Part shown: positions 6,465-55,929 of the stretch, piece by piece
How the letters are laid out: each line of letters begins with the position of its first letter
How positions within the stretch are numbered: the first letter of the stretch is position 1
Assembly (NCBI GenBank): GCA_018065895.1
Contig: JAGHSK010000002.1
Location: forward strand, 1-64,000
Length of the DNA: 64,000 bases
Direction: 5' to 3'
Source of the DNA: Candidatus Cacconaster equi
GTDB lineage: Bacteria > Bacteroidota > Bacteroidia > Bacteroidales > UBA932
Notes under the pieces: model-generated
Database searches by the model: none
The model's input: the letters and a program-made list of their open reading frames with translations, nothing else
Told to the model about the DNA's origin: nothing
Program-made: the position numbers and the translations under genes

Positions 6465-8990
6465 CTATCTGTAAACCTTTTCAGTTGAGAAGAAAGGCCG
6501 TCCTTCTTCTGTCATACCTTCGAGGACAATCGTATAAGGCACCTTGTGGTCTGAAGTATAGAAATCAAACTTGATTTCTCCATCTTCGGAGGTCAGAGCC
6601 GGATCCCAATAGAGTGTACTGCGCATCTTTTCAGGCATCCTCCTTGATGCTGACGACTCATATACAGGGTTGTAAAATCTTCTCGGCCGCTGCCATCCCA
6701 AAGGAACACCTTCATCCACGTTTGTGGCTGAATCGTGAACGAGCATCTTGGTCTTGATAAGAATCACACTTCTCGGTGCAAGCATATTGCCGGCAGAAGT
6801 ATTGAACTGCATCGCATCATTTCCCTTGATGTATGCGAAACCTTCAAGATCCGACACGTTGATGCCTTCAAGAGCCTCACAGGTAGTCTGCATTCCATTC
6901 ATGAACACGATGATTTCCTCCCATCCGCTTGTCAGACTGAACTGGCTTGAAACCCTTTGAGTACGGCACATGATGGTTCTCGCCCCTGTCTGGGTATCCG
7001 TGGTGTCTCCGTCAAAACTTACGACCATGTCACCGAAGCGCAAAGGAGGGCAAGTTGAAACTATGTAGGTCATCAAATCATAATCGGCATATTGGGCAAG
7101 CTCCGACTCAGAGCGATATTGGCCCTCCTTGAAAGTGAAATCAGGGAACGGTGATATGTTCACGTCCTTCCGCACTCTGGCACCGGTCACATAAGAAGGA
7201 TTCAACGTATAAACCATCTCTCCTCCTGCCTGATAATATTCGCTCATCGCCTCCAGCTTATACTGATTGTCATATCCTGAACGGCTCAAATAAGATGGAT
7301 ATTTGTGATATTTTGCGAAGATGTCCGGATCTACGTAAGGGGTGAAACGCTTTGTGGAGCCACCAAGGCTCATGGCAGCTACAAGGAACTTGGTCCCTTC
7401 AGGGAAATCAAGGCCGTTCAACGCGAAATATCCTGTTGTATCAAGCTGTCCCATTGCGGTGAAGCCGATTGACGGAGCCACGAATGAAACGATCGATTTC
7501 CTCGCCTTGGCAAACGAACCCTTCACCACTCCGCTGATTGATTGTGAATACTCCTTTCCGAACTGCGGCATCATGCTTTCACCCTTCATGATCTTAGGCA
7601 GGTCATAATATTTCCAGCCGTGAGTCAGCATAACCATATCCATTTCACGGATTCTCTCCGCAAGCGGTCTGTTCTCATCAAAAAGACGTTGTGAATTCTC
7701 CACGAACGACATCAGTTCACTGCCCAGGTAGTGGTATGACACAATATTGTATCCCTTTCCGGAATATGGGGCATAACTGTCGTCCGACACGGAAACCGAG
7801 TAATCTCCCTGCGGTGCCTTGACACTGCATGATACACGTTCCTTCGGCCCGTATTCCTCCTTTCCCTCCTGGATTTTTGAAGTCAGTGAAGCTGATGGAT
7901 ATACGAAGAAAGCTCTTTCCGCATACACGTTACCATCCTTGTCAATAACGGCAACATTGTTTATGCCGTCGGCCAGAAGGTTGTAAGGAACCTTCATACG
8001 GCTGTTGCGGATGCTGTATGGTATCGCCATGAATATTTCCGTACCGTCATGCACCACCACATAGGTAGAGTCCGGGAGCTCCAGATTACATTTAGAAACC
8101 ACAACCTCCGCTGCATCCTTTGCCGCATTGAGAGTGATTATAACCGCTGAAGGGGCCGGCTTAGGAAAATCCACCTTCTTGTCAAGTCCGTTCTCATCCG
8201 TAACTTTCGCAATGATTTTCTCTTCTCCGGCAGGGATGAACGCATTGACGCAAGCCATACCATATCTATCTGTCCTGAACTCTGAGAGAAGCTGGTCTCC
8301 GGCAAAAATCTGTCCGCTGACCTCTGTGCCCAGACCGTCCTGCCCCACTGCACGTACACCGAACCTCGCAGGCTGACCTGACACGTACCTGCCGCTCTCC
8401 GGAAGGAACTGCACGTCAACGTCATATTTCACAGTTCTCTTCTTTGTATAAGGATTTTCAACACCCATATCCTCATATTTCTTCTCCTCACGCACCTCCT
8501 GTTCAACCATCTGCTTGACCACGTCATCCTTCATAGGATTACGTATCTCGAGGTTCTTGAAGAACATATATTCAGGCTCCCTGTTAAGCATCCAGTATGT
8601 ATAAGCCCTGACAGTGGCTATGCCGGTGTTGAGATTCTCCGGAATCTTCATATAGCCTGTGAACATTCCGTCATTCCTCTTCACCTTCACCCTTGTACGG
8701 ACGTCATATCTGTTCTCGCTCTTGTTATTGGCCAGATTCTTCTCAGCCATTTCCGAAAAAAGTTCCACATATATATAATTGCACTCCGGAAATTCTGACA
8801 GCGCTGACACGTTGGTAAGATAGCCCTTGAACCAAAGAGTGTCACCTACGCAGTAAACCTCACGGTCAGTGTGCAGGTACAACTTTTCGGGAGAGAGCAG
8901 TTTTGAATACTGCTCGAAATTATCATCGGCAAAAACTGCTGAGCAGAGCAAAAGCCCTGAAAGTACAGTTACAATTCCCAATCTCTTCAT
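6465..8990 (-). CDS. Secreted MG2 (alpha-2-macroglobulin-like) domain protein
   Basis: Signal peptide; KLYLHTDREVYCVGDTLWFKGYL motif; 841 aa. Confidence 0.7.
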   Translation of the reverse strand: MKRLGIVTVLSGLLLCSAVFADDNFEQYSKLLSPEKLYLHTDREVYCVGDTLWFKGYLTNVSALSEFPECNYIYVELFSEMAEKNLANNKSENRYDVRTRVKVKRNDGMFTGYMKIPENLNTGIATVRAYTYWMLNREPEYMFFKNLEIRNPMKDDVVKQMVEQEVREEKKYEDMGVENPYTKKRTVKYDVDVQFLPESGRYVSGQPARFGVRAVGQDGLGTEVSGQIFAGDQLLSEFRTDRYGMACVNAFIPAGEEKIIAKVTDENGLDKKVDFPKPAPSAVIITLNAAKDAAEVVVSKCNLELPDSTYVVVHDGTEIFMAIPYSIRNSRMKVPYNLLADGINNVAVIDKDGNVYAERAFFVYPSASLTSKIQEGKEEYGPKERVSCSVKAPQGDYSVSVSDDSYAPYSGKGYNIVSYHYLGSELMSFVENSQRLFDENRPLAERIREMDMVMLTHGWKYYDLPKIMKGESMMPQFGKEYSQSISGVVKGSFAKARKSIVSFVAPSIGFTAMGQLDTTGYFALNGLDFPEGTKFLVAAMSLGGSTKRFTPYVDPDIFAKYHKYPSYLSRSGYDNQYKLEAMSEYYQAGGEMVYTLNPSYVTGARVRKDVNISPFPDFTFKEGQYRSESELAQYADYDLMTYIVSTCPPLRFGDMVVSFDGDTTDTQTGARTIMCRTQRVSSQFSLTSGWEEIIVFMNGMQTTCEALEGINVSDLEGFAYIKGNDAMQFNTSAGNMLAPRSVILIKTKMLVHDSATNVDEGVPLGWQRPRRFYNPVYESSASRRMPEKMRSTLYWDPALTSEDGEIKFDFYTSDHKVPYTIVLEGMTEEGRPFFSTEKVYR

Positions 8991-31587: not shown

Positions 31588-31663
<76 letters not shown>

Positions 31664-31669
31664 AAAGAG

Positions 31670-31697
31670 AAAGGATGTCCGGCAGGATGTCCTTTTC
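31670..31697 (+). terminator. Terminator after tRNA-Gly
   Basis: aaaggatgtcc-ggca-ggatgtcctttt: 11 bp stem with two G-U pairs. Confidence 0.55.
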
Positions 31698-31831
31698 AGT
31701 GGATGGATTTGACTGCTTGCTACCACTTTAAAAAAAGGCTAAAACGAACCTTCCGTGCTTCGCACGTTCATATATTGCAAATGTCAAATCCTTCGTACTG
31801 AATGGTTTGACTTTTTTTATTTTGCAATACT

Positions 31832-50693: not shown

Positions 50694-51311
50694 TTATTTC
50701 TTCTCGAAATGCTGGTAGTCTTTTGCAGACCTCCATTCTCCGCCCCATACAAAGCCTCTGCTTTTGAAAAGTTTGTAGCATAGATCCTTCTTGCTGATGG
50801 CGTGCGGCTGGGTTCTGTCCTTGCCCGAGGCAGCGGCGGCAGGTTTCACTATGTCGCCTTTAACATAAGGATTTTCCAAAGGATTGATATCTATTGCCAT
50901 ACCGTGGGCGTGCGCGGAGAGTTTCTTTGACCCGACTGCATTTCTGTAATTGAAGCACGAGGTGTTGTCGTCAGCCATCGACAATTCATCATCGCCACCG
51001 TATGAATCCACCAACCTCACCCGCCGTATAGGATAGCCGGCTTCATATAGTTCCTTGAATATATATATCAGATCGTCGGCTATGGCCTTGTTGCAGACAA
51101 TCTCGCCAAATGCCCTGTGGCCTTTGAAATCAGTATAGGTGACCACCAGATATCTCAAATCGTCAAAGTTCACCTCGCTGCCTTCCGGACAGGATTTCCC
51201 TGCCATTCTAAGTTGAATTGCGGGAGGAACCTTCGTACATAGGAAAAGACCCTCCTTTGCTTCCACTGTTAAACACAGGGACAACAGTATGATTGTCAAA
51301 AGTGTCTTCAT
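50694..51311 (-). CDS. M15-family D-Ala-D-Ala carboxypeptidase-like secreted protein
   Basis: KKLSAHAHGMAIDINPLENPYV (zinc HxxxxxxD-type site); FVWGGEWRSAKDYQHFE. Confidence 0.82.
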   Translation of the reverse strand: MKTLLTIILLSLCLTVEAKEGLFLCTKVPPAIQLRMAGKSCPEGSEVNFDDLRYLVVTYTDFKGHRAFGEIVCNKAIADDLIYIFKELYEAGYPIRRVRLVDSYGGDDELSMADDNTSCFNYRNAVGSKKLSAHAHGMAIDINPLENPYVKGDIVKPAAAASGKDRTQPHAISKKDLCYKLFKSRGFVWGGEWRSAKDYQHFEKK

Positions 51312-52450
51312 TAACGGCATCCCTCAATGAGAAGGTCTATTCCCTCCTTCAATCGCTTGACGTGAGACTGGTAACCGCAATTGGCCCAAGGAGCAGACAG
51401 GAAGCCCATCAGATGATCTTCCGGAACTGCCCTGCGTGTAAGCTTGATGATTTCGCCCATAACCTCATCGGAGTTTACGCCCTTCCTGCGTTTGTAGGCA
51501 CTTACCCAATTGCTTCCACATCCCAGCACGTCAAATCCGTTTTTGCCCAATTCGTAATAGCAAAGGACTTTATTCCTGACCCTGCCATTCATTTTATCCG
51601 GATCATAGCCCTGCAGGCTGTCATCATAATACCAAGGACACTGAATCACGCTCTTCGGACAGCGCGTATAGAAATCCGGATGATCCCAACCATAGTCGCT
51701 CCACACCATTGCGCGTGCGCCAAAACTCTCGACAATGCCTGTTATGTAGAGGAAATCCGTCCACCAGTTCTCCCCACAACGCATCATCATATAGGTGTAG
51801 CCCTTCTGGAGGTCATAATTATCCTCCTCGTCAAAGCCGAGGTGGATATAGCGGGGATGACCGAAGATTTCATATACATCGGAGAGGACATCCCTGCACA
51901 TCTGATAATAGGGCTTCGAAGAGACCATATGCTGGTAGTCCTTCATCCATCCGTTGTGATTTGTGGAAAAATTGAGTTTCGGTATGACCTCCATTCCCAT
52001 AGAGTTGAGCCGCCTTATTTCCTGCTGCATTTTTTCGACGCTCCAGGTCCCCGGAATCGCGAGTTCCGGGTGACTGGGATAAAAAAGCCCCTCTCCCAGG
52101 TCACAGACAAGCATATTGATGCCTCTCTCCGAAGCATAGTCTGTCACCTCCTTCCAATATTCGTTCTTGCAGACAAGTTTTAGGTCCGGTTGTATTGATT
52201 CGGGGAGATGTTTTATGGCAGACTCCGGATCGCTTCCCATAGCCTCGGTGGGCCACTGGCACCACATATTGTGGCCAATCATTATGTAAAGCGCCTTGAC
52301 ATCTCCGAAGGGCACCTGCACCGTCTGCGTCAATGGTTTTATCCTGATTTTCCTTTCCTTGCCAGTCTCTTTGCCAAAAGAATCAACTGATCCGAGCGCC
52401 AGGGCTGTGGCTCCCGCTGCGGCTGTTTCCAAAAAATGACGTCTGTCCAT
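51311..52450 (-). CDS. Tat-exported GH20-like (beta-hexosaminidase fold) protein
   Basis: MDRRHFLETAAAGATALALG Tat-type leader; YIHLGFDEEDNYDLQ reminiscent of GH20 HxGxDE; start at 52450. Confidence 0.6.
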   Translation of the reverse strand: MDRRHFLETAAAGATALALGSVDSFGKETGKERKIRIKPLTQTVQVPFGDVKALYIMIGHNMWCQWPTEAMGSDPESAIKHLPESIQPDLKLVCKNEYWKEVTDYASERGINMLVCDLGEGLFYPSHPELAIPGTWSVEKMQQEIRRLNSMGMEVIPKLNFSTNHNGWMKDYQHMVSSKPYYQMCRDVLSDVYEIFGHPRYIHLGFDEEDNYDLQKGYTYMMMRCGENWWTDFLYITGIVESFGARAMVWSDYGWDHPDFYTRCPKSVIQCPWYYDDSLQGYDPDKMNGRVRNKVLCYYELGKNGFDVLGCGSNWVSAYKRRKGVNSDEVMGEIIKLTRRAVPEDHLMGFLSAPWANCGYQSHVKRLKEGIDLLIEGCR

Positions 52451-52554
52451 ACCTGTCTGAATTTCGATGCCTGCCACAAATATAAACAATAATCCGCACT
52501 CCCTCGACCACGAGATTCAACTCAAAAGACAAAAGCTTCGCTCACGGCTCTATC

Positions 52555-52757
52555 GCAGACAGGATGCAGACAGGACTCACGGTTTCGCAGAGCTGCCTCT
52601 GGCCTTGACTTCCCTTTGCTGCGGAACTCGCTATTTTAGCTGCTACGCATCTAAAATCACTCACACAGTCCTCGCAATTCGCTTCGCGAACCGGGGCGTC
52701 TTCGTCCTTCGGCTACCTCGCTCTGCGAAACCGTGAGTCCTGTCCGCATCTGTCTGC
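52555..52757. repeat. Structured inverted-repeat element of about 203 bp
   Basis: Left arm gcagacaggatgcagacaggactcacggtttcgcagag (52555-52592) is nearly the exact reverse complement of right arm ctctgcgaaaccgtgagtcctgtccgcatctgtctgc (52721-52757): one indel, one mismatch; internal hairpins attttag...ctaaaat and ttcgc-ttc-gcgaa. Confidence 0.85.
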
Positions 52758-52780
52758 TTTTTTGGAGCCCTTTTTTTGAA

Positions 52781-52836
52781 AAAAGAAAAAGGGATTTGCA
52801 CCTTCCGGACAAAAGCCATTGGAACAAATCCCTTTG
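52781..52836 (-). terminator. Terminator of tRNA-Met
   Basis: Minus strand caaagggatttg ... caaatcccttt followed by ttctttttt. Confidence 0.65.
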
Positions 52837-52910
52837 TGGTCCCAGCAGGGCATGATCCTGCGACCCCCTGATTATGAGTCAGATGCTCTAACCAACTGAG
52901 CTATGGGACC
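52837..52910 (-). tRNA. tRNA-Met(CAT) (elongator-like; tRNA-Ile2 not excluded), CCA not encoded
   Basis: ggtcccatagctcagttggttagagcatctgactCATaatcagggggtcgcaggatcatgccctgctgggacca cloverleaf. Confidence 0.92.
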
Positions 52911-53325: not shown

Positions 53326-55443
53326 TTATTCATCATCTTCGGCAAACCTTCTAGGACCGCCCTGTTTGTCGATAACTTCCTTGGCAATGTTTCCAGGAAC
53401 CTCCGCATAGTGGGAAAATTCCATTGTGCTGGTAGCACGGCCTGAAGAGAGTGTACGGAGAACAGTCACATAACCGAACTGTTCTGAAAGCGGAACTTTA
53501 GCTTTGACGATTCTTGCATTGCCTTTGCTGTCCATATCGACAATCTGCCCGCGGCGGCGGTTCAGGTCTCCCACGACATCACCCATATAGTCTTCCGGAG
53601 TAACGACTTCGAGCGACATTATAGGTTCCATCAAGACAGGAGCGCACTTAGGCAGAGCCTTTCGGAATGCCAGTCGCGCACATATCTCAAATGAGAGGGC
53701 ATCTGAATCAACAGGGTGGAAGCTACCGTCGAGAAGGCGGACCTTCAGAGACGTAACTTCATAACCTGCGAGCACACCGTTGGCCATTGCTGATTTGAAT
53801 CCTTTTTCAACTGCCGGTATGAACTCACGAGGGATGTTGCCGCCCTTGACTTCGTCAATGAACTGAAGTCCGGTAACACCTTCGTCAGCAGGCCCTATTT
53901 CAACGATGATGTCAGCGAACTTGCCGCGTCCACCAGTCTGTTTCTTGAATACCTCGCGGTGCTGGACAGCCTTGGTGACAGCCTCTTTGTAGTTGACCTG
54001 AGGCGCACCCTGGTTGATTTCCACTCCGAACTCCCTGCGGAGACGGTCCACGATGATATCAAGATGAAGTTCACCCATACCGCTGATAATGGTCTGACCA
54101 GTTTCAGCATCTGACTGAACTGTGAATGTAGGGTCTTCTTCTGACAGTTTGCCAAGCGCAATGCCCAATTTGTCGAGATCCTGCTGTGTCTTCGGCTCAA
54201 CGGCAAGTCCGATCACAGGATCAGGGAATGTCATTGATTCGAGCACAATAGGATGGTTCTCTTCACAAATGGTGTCACCAGTGCGCAGCTCCTTGAATCC
54301 GACTGCAGCGCAGATATCACCTGCTTCCACAAAGTCAATAGGATTCTGTTTGTTGGAGTGCATCTGGTAGAGTCTTGCCACACGTTCTTTTTTGCCTGAG
54401 CGTGTGTTGAGCACATAAGAGCCGGCATCCAGCTTGCCCGAGTAGGCTCTCAGGAATGCCAGGCGTCCCACGAAAGGATCGGTTGCAATCTTGAATACAA
54501 GTCCGCAGAAAGGTTCAGTTGAATCCGGTTTGCGCTCGATCTTCTCCCCTGTACGAAGATTTTCGCCGGTAACTCCACCTTTGTCGAGCGGAGACGGAAG
54601 GTAACGCATAACTGCATCCAGAAGGAACTGTACACCTTTGTTCTTAAATGATGAACCGCAGCAGGTAGGAACAACCGCCATATCGATGGTGGCCTTCCTG
54701 AGCGCCTCGATTATCTCTTCATCGGAAATTGAATCAGGGTCGTCGAAGAATTTCTCAAGGATCGTGTCATCGTATTCGGCAATCGACTCGATGAGTTTTC
54801 CTCTCCATTCCTCAACCTCTGCAACCATGGAAGCAGGAATCTCCCTTATCTCATAATTGACAAGCTCCTTGCTGTTGTTGTAGTAGTAAGCTTTCTTTGA
54901 GATGAGGTCAACCACACCCTCGAAGTTCTCCTCTGCACCGATAGGCAGGCAGATAGGGATCGAGCGTGCTCCAAGCTTCTCGTTTATCTCCTCCACGACA
55001 GCAAGAAAATCTGCACCCGTGCGGTCCATCTTGTTCACGTAGGCAATCTTCGGAACAAGATATTTGTCAGCCTGACGCCAAACGGTCTCAGACTGGGGCT
55101 GCACACGTCCGACAGCACAGAATGTAGCAATCGTGCCGTCGAGGACACGGAGGCTACGTTCCACCTCGACCGTAAAGTCAACGTGGCCCGGAGTGTCGAT
55201 AAGGTTTATCTGGTATTGATTTCCGTTGTAATGCCAGAAAGCCGTAGTCGCAGCCGATGTGATGGTAATACCACGCTCCTGCTCCTGGACCATCCAGTCC
55301 ATTGTGGCAGCGCCCTCGTGCACCTCTCCCATCTTGTGGGTCTTGCCCGTATAGTAGAGGATACGTTCAGACGTTGTGGTCTTACCGGCATCGATGTGCG
55401 CCATGATACCGATATTCCTTGTGTATTTAAGATCTCTTGCCAT
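53326..55443 (-). CDS. fusA: Elongation factor G
   Basis: [43 protein letters not shown]. Confidence 0.98.
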
Positions 55444-55452
55444 TAAGCTCTA

Positions 55453-55929
55453 TTAGAAACGGAAATGTGCAAAGGCCTTGTTAGCCTCAGCCATTCTGTG
55501 CATATCTTCTTTTCTCTTGAAGGCTGCACCTTCGCAGTTGTAAGCCGCCATGATTTCTGCAGCCAGTTTTTCGGCCATGGAGTGACCGGAGCGCTTACGG
55601 GCGAAAAGTATCATATTCTTCATACTGAGAGAGACTTTTCTTTCCGGACGAACCTCCATAGGCACCTGGAAGTTTGCACCACCTACACGACGTGACTTAA
55701 CCTCAACCTGAGGAGTGACGTTTTCAAGGGCTTTCTTCCAAATATCGAGTGGAGCCTGCTCAGAATCTTTCATCTTCTCGCCGATCATATCGATCGCATC
55801 GTAAAAAATAGAATAAGCGATACTCTTCTTCCCCTGCAACATAAGATTATTCACGAAACGGGTAACCTGTACATCGTGAAACTTAGGATCAGGAAGTAGA
55901 ATCCTCTTTTTAGGCTTCGTTTTTCTCAT
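55453..55929 (-). CDS. rpsG: 30S ribosomal protein S7
   Basis: [31 protein letters not shown]; order rpsL-rpsG-fusA. Confidence 0.98.

Follow-up and report, generated by a model that had tools for sequence, protein, structure and literature searches.

What is the long palindrome that stands beside a tRNA-Met gene in the genome of Candidatus Cacconaster equi (draft of 1.65 Mb, 84% complete)? The 64,000 nucleotides analysed here (the window, on contig C18) contain a long branched, non-coding foldback, for which the initial annotation left three options side by side: an interspersed palindromic or REP-like element, a miniature mobile element, or a non-coding RNA. A small parasitic DNA repeat, and not a gene, is the most likely answer, because its copies are scattered and are found adjacent to transposase genes in two species.

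The element had been placed at 52555-52757 (~203 bp), which proved too small, as an outer GGCTC/GAGCC stem common to the copies in the same genome extends it to 226 bp (52545-52770). The two arms with one mismatch and one indel were present as described, with 37 of 39 columns identical when counted inward to GCTCTGC, and so were both inner hairpins. The features of the element and of its surroundings are listed below, with the strand where one was assigned; G020 denotes the genome of Candidatus Cacconaster scatequi.

52545-52770: whole palindromic element (window copy), homologous to copies on contigs C59 and C45 (two) and in G020; fold z -11.6
52546-52550: outer stem, left strand GGCTC, pairs with GAGCC at 52765-52769; kept in the C59a, C45a and C45b copies
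52765-52769: outer stem, right strand GAGCC, pairs with GGCTC at 52546-52550
52555-52593: left arm, 37/39 identity to the reverse complement of the right arm; compensatory changes across copies
52720-52757: right arm, partner of the left arm; compensatory changes across copies
52618-52631, plus strand: conserved core, left half GCTGCGGAACTCGC, (nearly) invariant in related elements whose arms differ (L033, L081, L082)
52633-52657: inner hairpin ATTTTAG..CTAAAAT, preserved by double changes in G020 (CTTCA..TGAAG)
52660-52675, plus strand: conserved core, right half CTCACACAGTCCTCGC, (nearly) invariant in the same related elements (L033, L081, L082)
52678-52690: inner hairpin TTCGC-TTC-GCGAA, invariant in 6/6 aligned copies
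52780-52832, minus strand: terminator-like hairpin of tRNA-Met with a T tract (GGGATTTG/CAAATCCC stem, read from the sequence), outside the element
52836-52910, minus strand: tRNA-Met, neighbour
51311-52450, minus strand: Tat-signal, GH20-like gene, start at 52450, with weak Pfam matches to GH20 (E=1.2e-4) and TAT_signal (E=4.7e-4)
52484-52477, minus strand: putative -7 box TATATTTG, between the element and the GH20-like gene

Among the palindromes of the window the element is the strongest by a wide margin, and it lies far above chance. In a repeat scan of the whole 64 kb it was the sole inverted repeat with 24 nt or more (31 nt, 97%), its ungapped palindrome score was 27, where the best of 20 block-shuffled windows reached 14, and the predicted folds were strong both as RNA (-112.7 kcal/mol on the plus strand, z -11.6, and -119.8 on the minus strand, z -11.9) and as DNA (-61.7 kcal/mol, z -9.7). 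The runner-up of the window is a 37-bp near-perfect self-complementary stretch at 1206-1242. The truncation of some copies might suggest a chance or decayed palindrome without mobility; this is very hard to reconcile with a score that shuffled sequences did not approach or with the compensatory changes described below, and the dispersed copies refute it.

A T-run 3' of the right arm (CTTTTTTGG) had given the locus a terminator-like appearance. It is private to the window copy, as other copies read CTATGGGG or CTTTGAGG at this position, and it falls inside the outer stem, so it provides no evidence of a terminator. The proximity to tRNA-Met, part of the original description, turned out to be incidental: both tRNA-Met and rpsJ are conserved throughout the genus, and the element was absent beside the tRNA in all relatives with readable DNA beyond it (just under 30). 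In most relatives compared, tRNA-Met is followed by a hairpin comparable to that of the window; the hairpin of the window was not called by a simple scan. Since all neighbours are read on the minus strand, the element would, judging from the sequence, occupy a neutral slot, 3' of one transcription unit and 5' of the next promoter. The search for an empty site through tRNA-Met/rpsJ gave no usable orthologous site, the DNA beyond tRNA-Met differing in every relative, and the GH20-like gene has no genus orthologue through which such a site could be reached. Elsewhere in the window, a tRNA-Gly is followed by a SAM-II riboswitch (31588-31752; Rfam RF01726, 61 bits).

BLAST searches with the element in its own genome and in relatives showed that it is not single copy. 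Four full copies, about 90% identical, and three pieces were recovered from its own genome (G000), at the following positions:

Full copies: the window copy on C18; C59:27272-27488; C45:55491-55707; C45:57231-57446
Partial copies: C59:26144; C60:7144; C36:40355

Of 40 genus genomes, this one included, just one more carried a copy, that of Ca. Cacconaster scatequi (G020, C18:108-294), where it is single and 79% identical. A pattern scan of genome contigs additionally recovered related elements, with the same core and different arms, in two more horse-gut Bacteroidales, a horse-faeces MAG (L032) and a contig of Ca. Cryptobacteroides fimicaballi (L033); three other pattern matches (L120-L122) were without a branched palindrome and were taken as chance. 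Scans of 393 and 247 genomes of the order for the exact core pattern gave no match outside the genome of the element, BLAST against phages and plasmids gave no match to the element, and a literature search with its sequence strings returned nothing relevant. The copy count comes from an 84% complete draft in which a tandem array adjacent to some copies reaches the contig ends (C60, C19), so an undercount is likely, and the MAG is broken up exactly at such repeats. Contig C60 (L021) carries an exact 127-bp terminal repeat containing the hairpin array (1-127 and 7236-7362), probably a point where the assembly broke because a repeat had collapsed, and the copy numbers of the draft are therefore likely underestimates. 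The patchy and narrow range in horse-gut Bacteroidales fits that expected of a mobile repeat.

Dispersed copies with long, near-perfect terminal inverted repeats and without an ORF of their own could also be those of a MITE, moved by a DDE transposase with target-site duplication. However, no consistent target-site duplication was found around the copies (the best flanking repeats, of 4–6 bp, lay in low-complexity tracts and their offsets differed), the element is palindromic along most of its length and not just at its ends, and no DDE transposase was seen by the copies, which makes such an origin quite improbable.

The fold appears to be maintained across the family. In an alignment of six copies (A1), the consensus has 63 pairs with 94% of the cells paired, and 9 pairs are changed on both sides, compared to 1–3 in slid controls, with 0 of 500 shuffles as high. 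These compensatory changes would preserve the branched fold, and we regard the covariation as supportive rather than conclusive because it is drawn from only six related sequences and the RNAalifold covariation term is unfavourable (+1.3). The strong fold and the covariation are also what speaks for an RNA function, for which the element would be conserved as a structured non-coding RNA or a cis-regulator. This option of the initial annotation now seems improbable, as no Rfam covariance model matched the element at the gathering threshold or even at E≤1, its distribution is narrow (with a structure or core model, G000 and G020 only, among the 40 genus genomes), the copies lie in differing contexts and fold equally well on both strands, arms have been exchanged between elements, and those of the window copy look corrected at the DNA level.

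Each of the five other copies, the outgroups G020 and L032 among them, has a left arm that departs from the reverse-complemented right arm at fixed positions, the left type being GTCCGAGACTCACGGTTTCGC and the right type GGACAGGACTCACTTTGAGC, with minor variants. The window copy is reciprocal, its left arm bearing the right-arm GACAGG and its right arm the left-arm CGGTTTCGC, and its arms match in 37/39 columns compared to 31–32/40 in three other full copies. By parsimony, the window copy, with its near-perfect arms, probably shows the derived state. Template switching in quasipalindromes is known to produce reciprocal homogenisation (PMC8794818, PMC7202029, PMC8604942), and the change seen here may be the trace of a template switch that took place in a DNA hairpin during replication; since the arms were homogenised reciprocally in this way, the pattern suggests that the element folds as DNA in vivo. 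The arm mismatches had been taken as compatible with a maintained helix, and a helix is indeed kept across the family, while the near-perfection of the window copy looks like recent arm-to-arm correction.

The copies on C45 and C59 adjoin a tandem hairpin array with a 51-bp period (TGCCAC..GTGGCA) and the window copy stands alone, so that the 226 bp form a discrete unit. Composite blocks with the same order, array-element-rhuM-array-element, are found on C45 and C59. Two rhuM genes (Virulence_RhuM family), on C45 (L020 8208-11447) and C59 (L019 8145-9631), are each located between direct array and element copies, which suggests that repeat-bounded blocks carry rhuM as a passenger gene. On C36, the left arm of the window element is attached to a larger branched element (~340 nt) with a different interior, and this interior recurs in C60 with other arms. 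Common ends on different interiors fit a recognition of the ends in trans, by analogy with BIMEs.

A candidate enzyme for such recognition is encoded next to the C45 copies. The 301-aa RAYT-like ORF at C45:54376-55278 is followed, 16 bp after its stop, by the 51-bp-period array and, 210 bp after it, by the element, and in G020 a 319-aa homologue lies in divergent orientation ~0.2 kb from the copy of that genome. The element therefore has a RAYT-like neighbour in two species (G000 C45 and G020 C18), with proteins only 36% identical to each other, and by our own arithmetic the chance of such proximity is ~0.1–0.5% per genome; no RAYT gene was found in the available DNA around the L032 and L033 copies. 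Across an alignment of 26 proteins of this family, H68, H70, Y126 and N130 are invariant, corresponding to an H-x-H motif (NHxH; NHIH) and a Y with N at +4. The C45 protein matched Pfam Y1_Tnp (PF01797) with E=0.019 and 15.5 bits, below the cut-off of 23, and had no match to NF047646, to which a genus homologue aligned with E=8e-9, also below the cut-off. Profile matches of the family to ISDra2/IS200 (IS200/IS605) transposases of known structure were weak (E 0.0085–0.63). An AlphaFold model (pLDDT 86) retrieved 2ec2, 4er8 (a RAYT bound to a REP hairpin), 2a6o and 2xo6 in Foldseek, IS608 and ISDra2 enzymes being among the matches, with a probability of ~1.0 but E-values of only 0.005–0.02 and with Thg1-like proteins scoring similarly. 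Based on the motifs, the profile matches and the predicted structure, the family is assigned as a putative divergent HUH/Y1 transposase, RAYT-like.

This family is expanded within the genus, where it occurs in 30 of the 37 genomes examined with up to 8 members per genome, in comparison to only 2 of 148 order genomes sampled outside it (E≤1e-10). A flanking 200-nt window with a fold z≤-5 was present at 13 of 30 genus RAYT loci vs. 1 of 183 control windows, and the flanks folded more strongly than the controls (Mann-Whitney p 5e-13 downstream and 7e-9 upstream, approximate values as the flank windows overlap). The palindromes beside the genes are visibly different between loci. At L048, L053, L055, L056 and L038, each RAYT stop is followed downstream by its own distinct tandem palindrome array. 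The RAYT-like genes and their own arrays are apparent transposase/hairpin pairs within one genus, and the flanking-palindrome layout is the RAYT/REPtron pattern of one transposase per repeat type.

The closest repeat of the C45 RAYT may be the adjacent 51-bp array, with the 226-bp element as a passenger. The enzyme would then act on the array, and the element would have spread together with the array and rhuM through segmental duplication and inter-repeat recombination. The repeated composite blocks of C45 and C59 point in this direction, as does the presence of the array on both flanks of the RAYT gene (54207-54294, shorter and upstream, and 55297-55490), the classic REPtron layout. However, the window copy lies outside such blocks, without array or rhuM, the G020 copy adjoins a different RAYT, and C36 has the same arm on a different interior, and we consider passenger spread unlikely, though deserving some weight.

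We find it reasonably probable that the element is a non-autonomous, REP/BIME-like dispersed repeat, which a RAYT-type enzyme mobilises in trans while it is folded as single-stranded DNA. The options of a REP-like and of a miniature mobile element both anticipated what was found, namely a dispersed multi-copy family with discrete ends, mosaic relatives and RAYT-like neighbours. During replication, the lagging-strand template would become single-stranded and the element would fold into a branched hairpin, the arms of which would be recognised, cut and re-joined by a RAYT-like HUH/Y1 single-strand nuclease whose gene lies elsewhere (here at C45:54376-55278). In this way the enzyme would move or copy the element in trans. 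The window copy would represent an insertion in a permissive slot between the tRNA terminator and the promoter of the next gene, for which no link to tRNA-Met is necessary.

Canonical REPs are of 21–65 nt, have a 5' GT[AG]G foot and usually reach a high copy number (PMC6006769, PMC2817692, PMC3733652). With REP/REPIN/BIME systems and their RAYT (TnpAREP) in REPtrons, the element shares the extragenic palindromes, the mosaic of modules, the hairpin-flanked transposase, one divergent transposase gene per repeat type, and the location beside RAYT-like genes. It differs from them in size (226 nt with nested hairpins, several times the 20–65 nt of a REP/REPIN palindrome), in having no GT[AG]G foot at its ends (the plus strand is without any, the minus strand has two internal GTAG), and in a copy number, likely undercounted, of 4 full and 3 partial in an 84% complete draft, a handful compared to hundreds. 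Because the size is wrong and the foot missing, and with a copy number that is low in this draft, it is not a canonical REP/REPIN.

The closest known system is found in Bacteroidetes, where genes of TnpAY1 subclass 2.6 (= RAYT group 5) have atypical secondary structures on their flanks (PMC6006769). Common to both are a Bacteroidota host, an HUH/Y1 protein with NH[LIV]H (NHIH here), and flanking structures that lack the canonical GT[AG]G foot and of which the genome holds further copies. In contrast, the protein described here has 301 aa vs. the tabulated 179, its Y1_Tnp match (E=0.019) is below the Pfam cut-off, its Y motif is YDNRNG vs. YIH[QN]NP in a comparison made by motif, and the branched element (226 nt) is far larger than the REPs of that study (21–65 nt; PMC6006769). 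The organisation matches subclass 2.6 and, by analogy, the element would behave as a RAYT-associated repeat, but the tests do not justify classing it as a REP or under subclass 2.6. TIRtrons, formed by RAYT-like (TIRYT) genes with TIRs (PMC3733652), are similar in that the genes have, on their flanks, long inverted repeats that bear no relation to GTAG REPs and that in some cases make up repeat families, but the TIRs lie on both sides of the gene there, whereas a self-contained foldback lies on one side here. The ends of IS200/IS605 elements (TnpA substrates) are likewise hairpin DNA substrates of Y1 HUH enzymes without target duplication, but the element has no internal tnpA and is no insertion sequence.

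The core (ACTCGC..CTCAGACAGT) is also present in contigs of Fusobacteriota, of other Bacteroidota and, apparently, of proteobacteria (L081 9040-9080; L082 1285-1318; L123 1505; L124 1502; L125 1502; L129 6736). In several cases it forms the tip of a long palindrome whose arms are unrelated, and a small hairpin of the AAAGTAACCAAA type often lies just 5' of it. The 5' hairpin of a Parabacteroides palindrome (L124 ~1412-1447) matches Microviridae MH572371 over 36 nt (92%), at a place with no annotated gene. As a general palindrome tip, the core had strong centred palindromes (≥26 pairs) at 6 of 22 non-redundant viral-contig sites, with p=0.15 in a rank test against random positions, and for this reason its sharing with palindromes of other phyla is kept as a lead only.

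What is known of RAYT biology comes mostly from proteobacteria, whose enzymes go with short GTAG REPs. A tentative and rather speculative proposal is that divergent HUH/Y1 transposases have radiated in this genus of horse-gut Bacteroidales (with as many as 8 per genome), each with its own palindrome array and some with very large branched DNA hairpins as substrates instead of short GTAG REPs, in which the arms evolve freely and the central core stays constant even in palindromes of other phyla with unrelated arms. For annotation, the findings explain a puzzling intergenic palindrome and caution against labelling it as a non-coding RNA or a terminator. The window copy, with its arms corrected toward each other, is an apparent natural footprint of DNA hairpin formation in replication. 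Many divergent RAYT-like genes with locally distinct, sometimes very large palindromes in one genus would, if true, show the co-diversification of transposases and their hairpin substrates.
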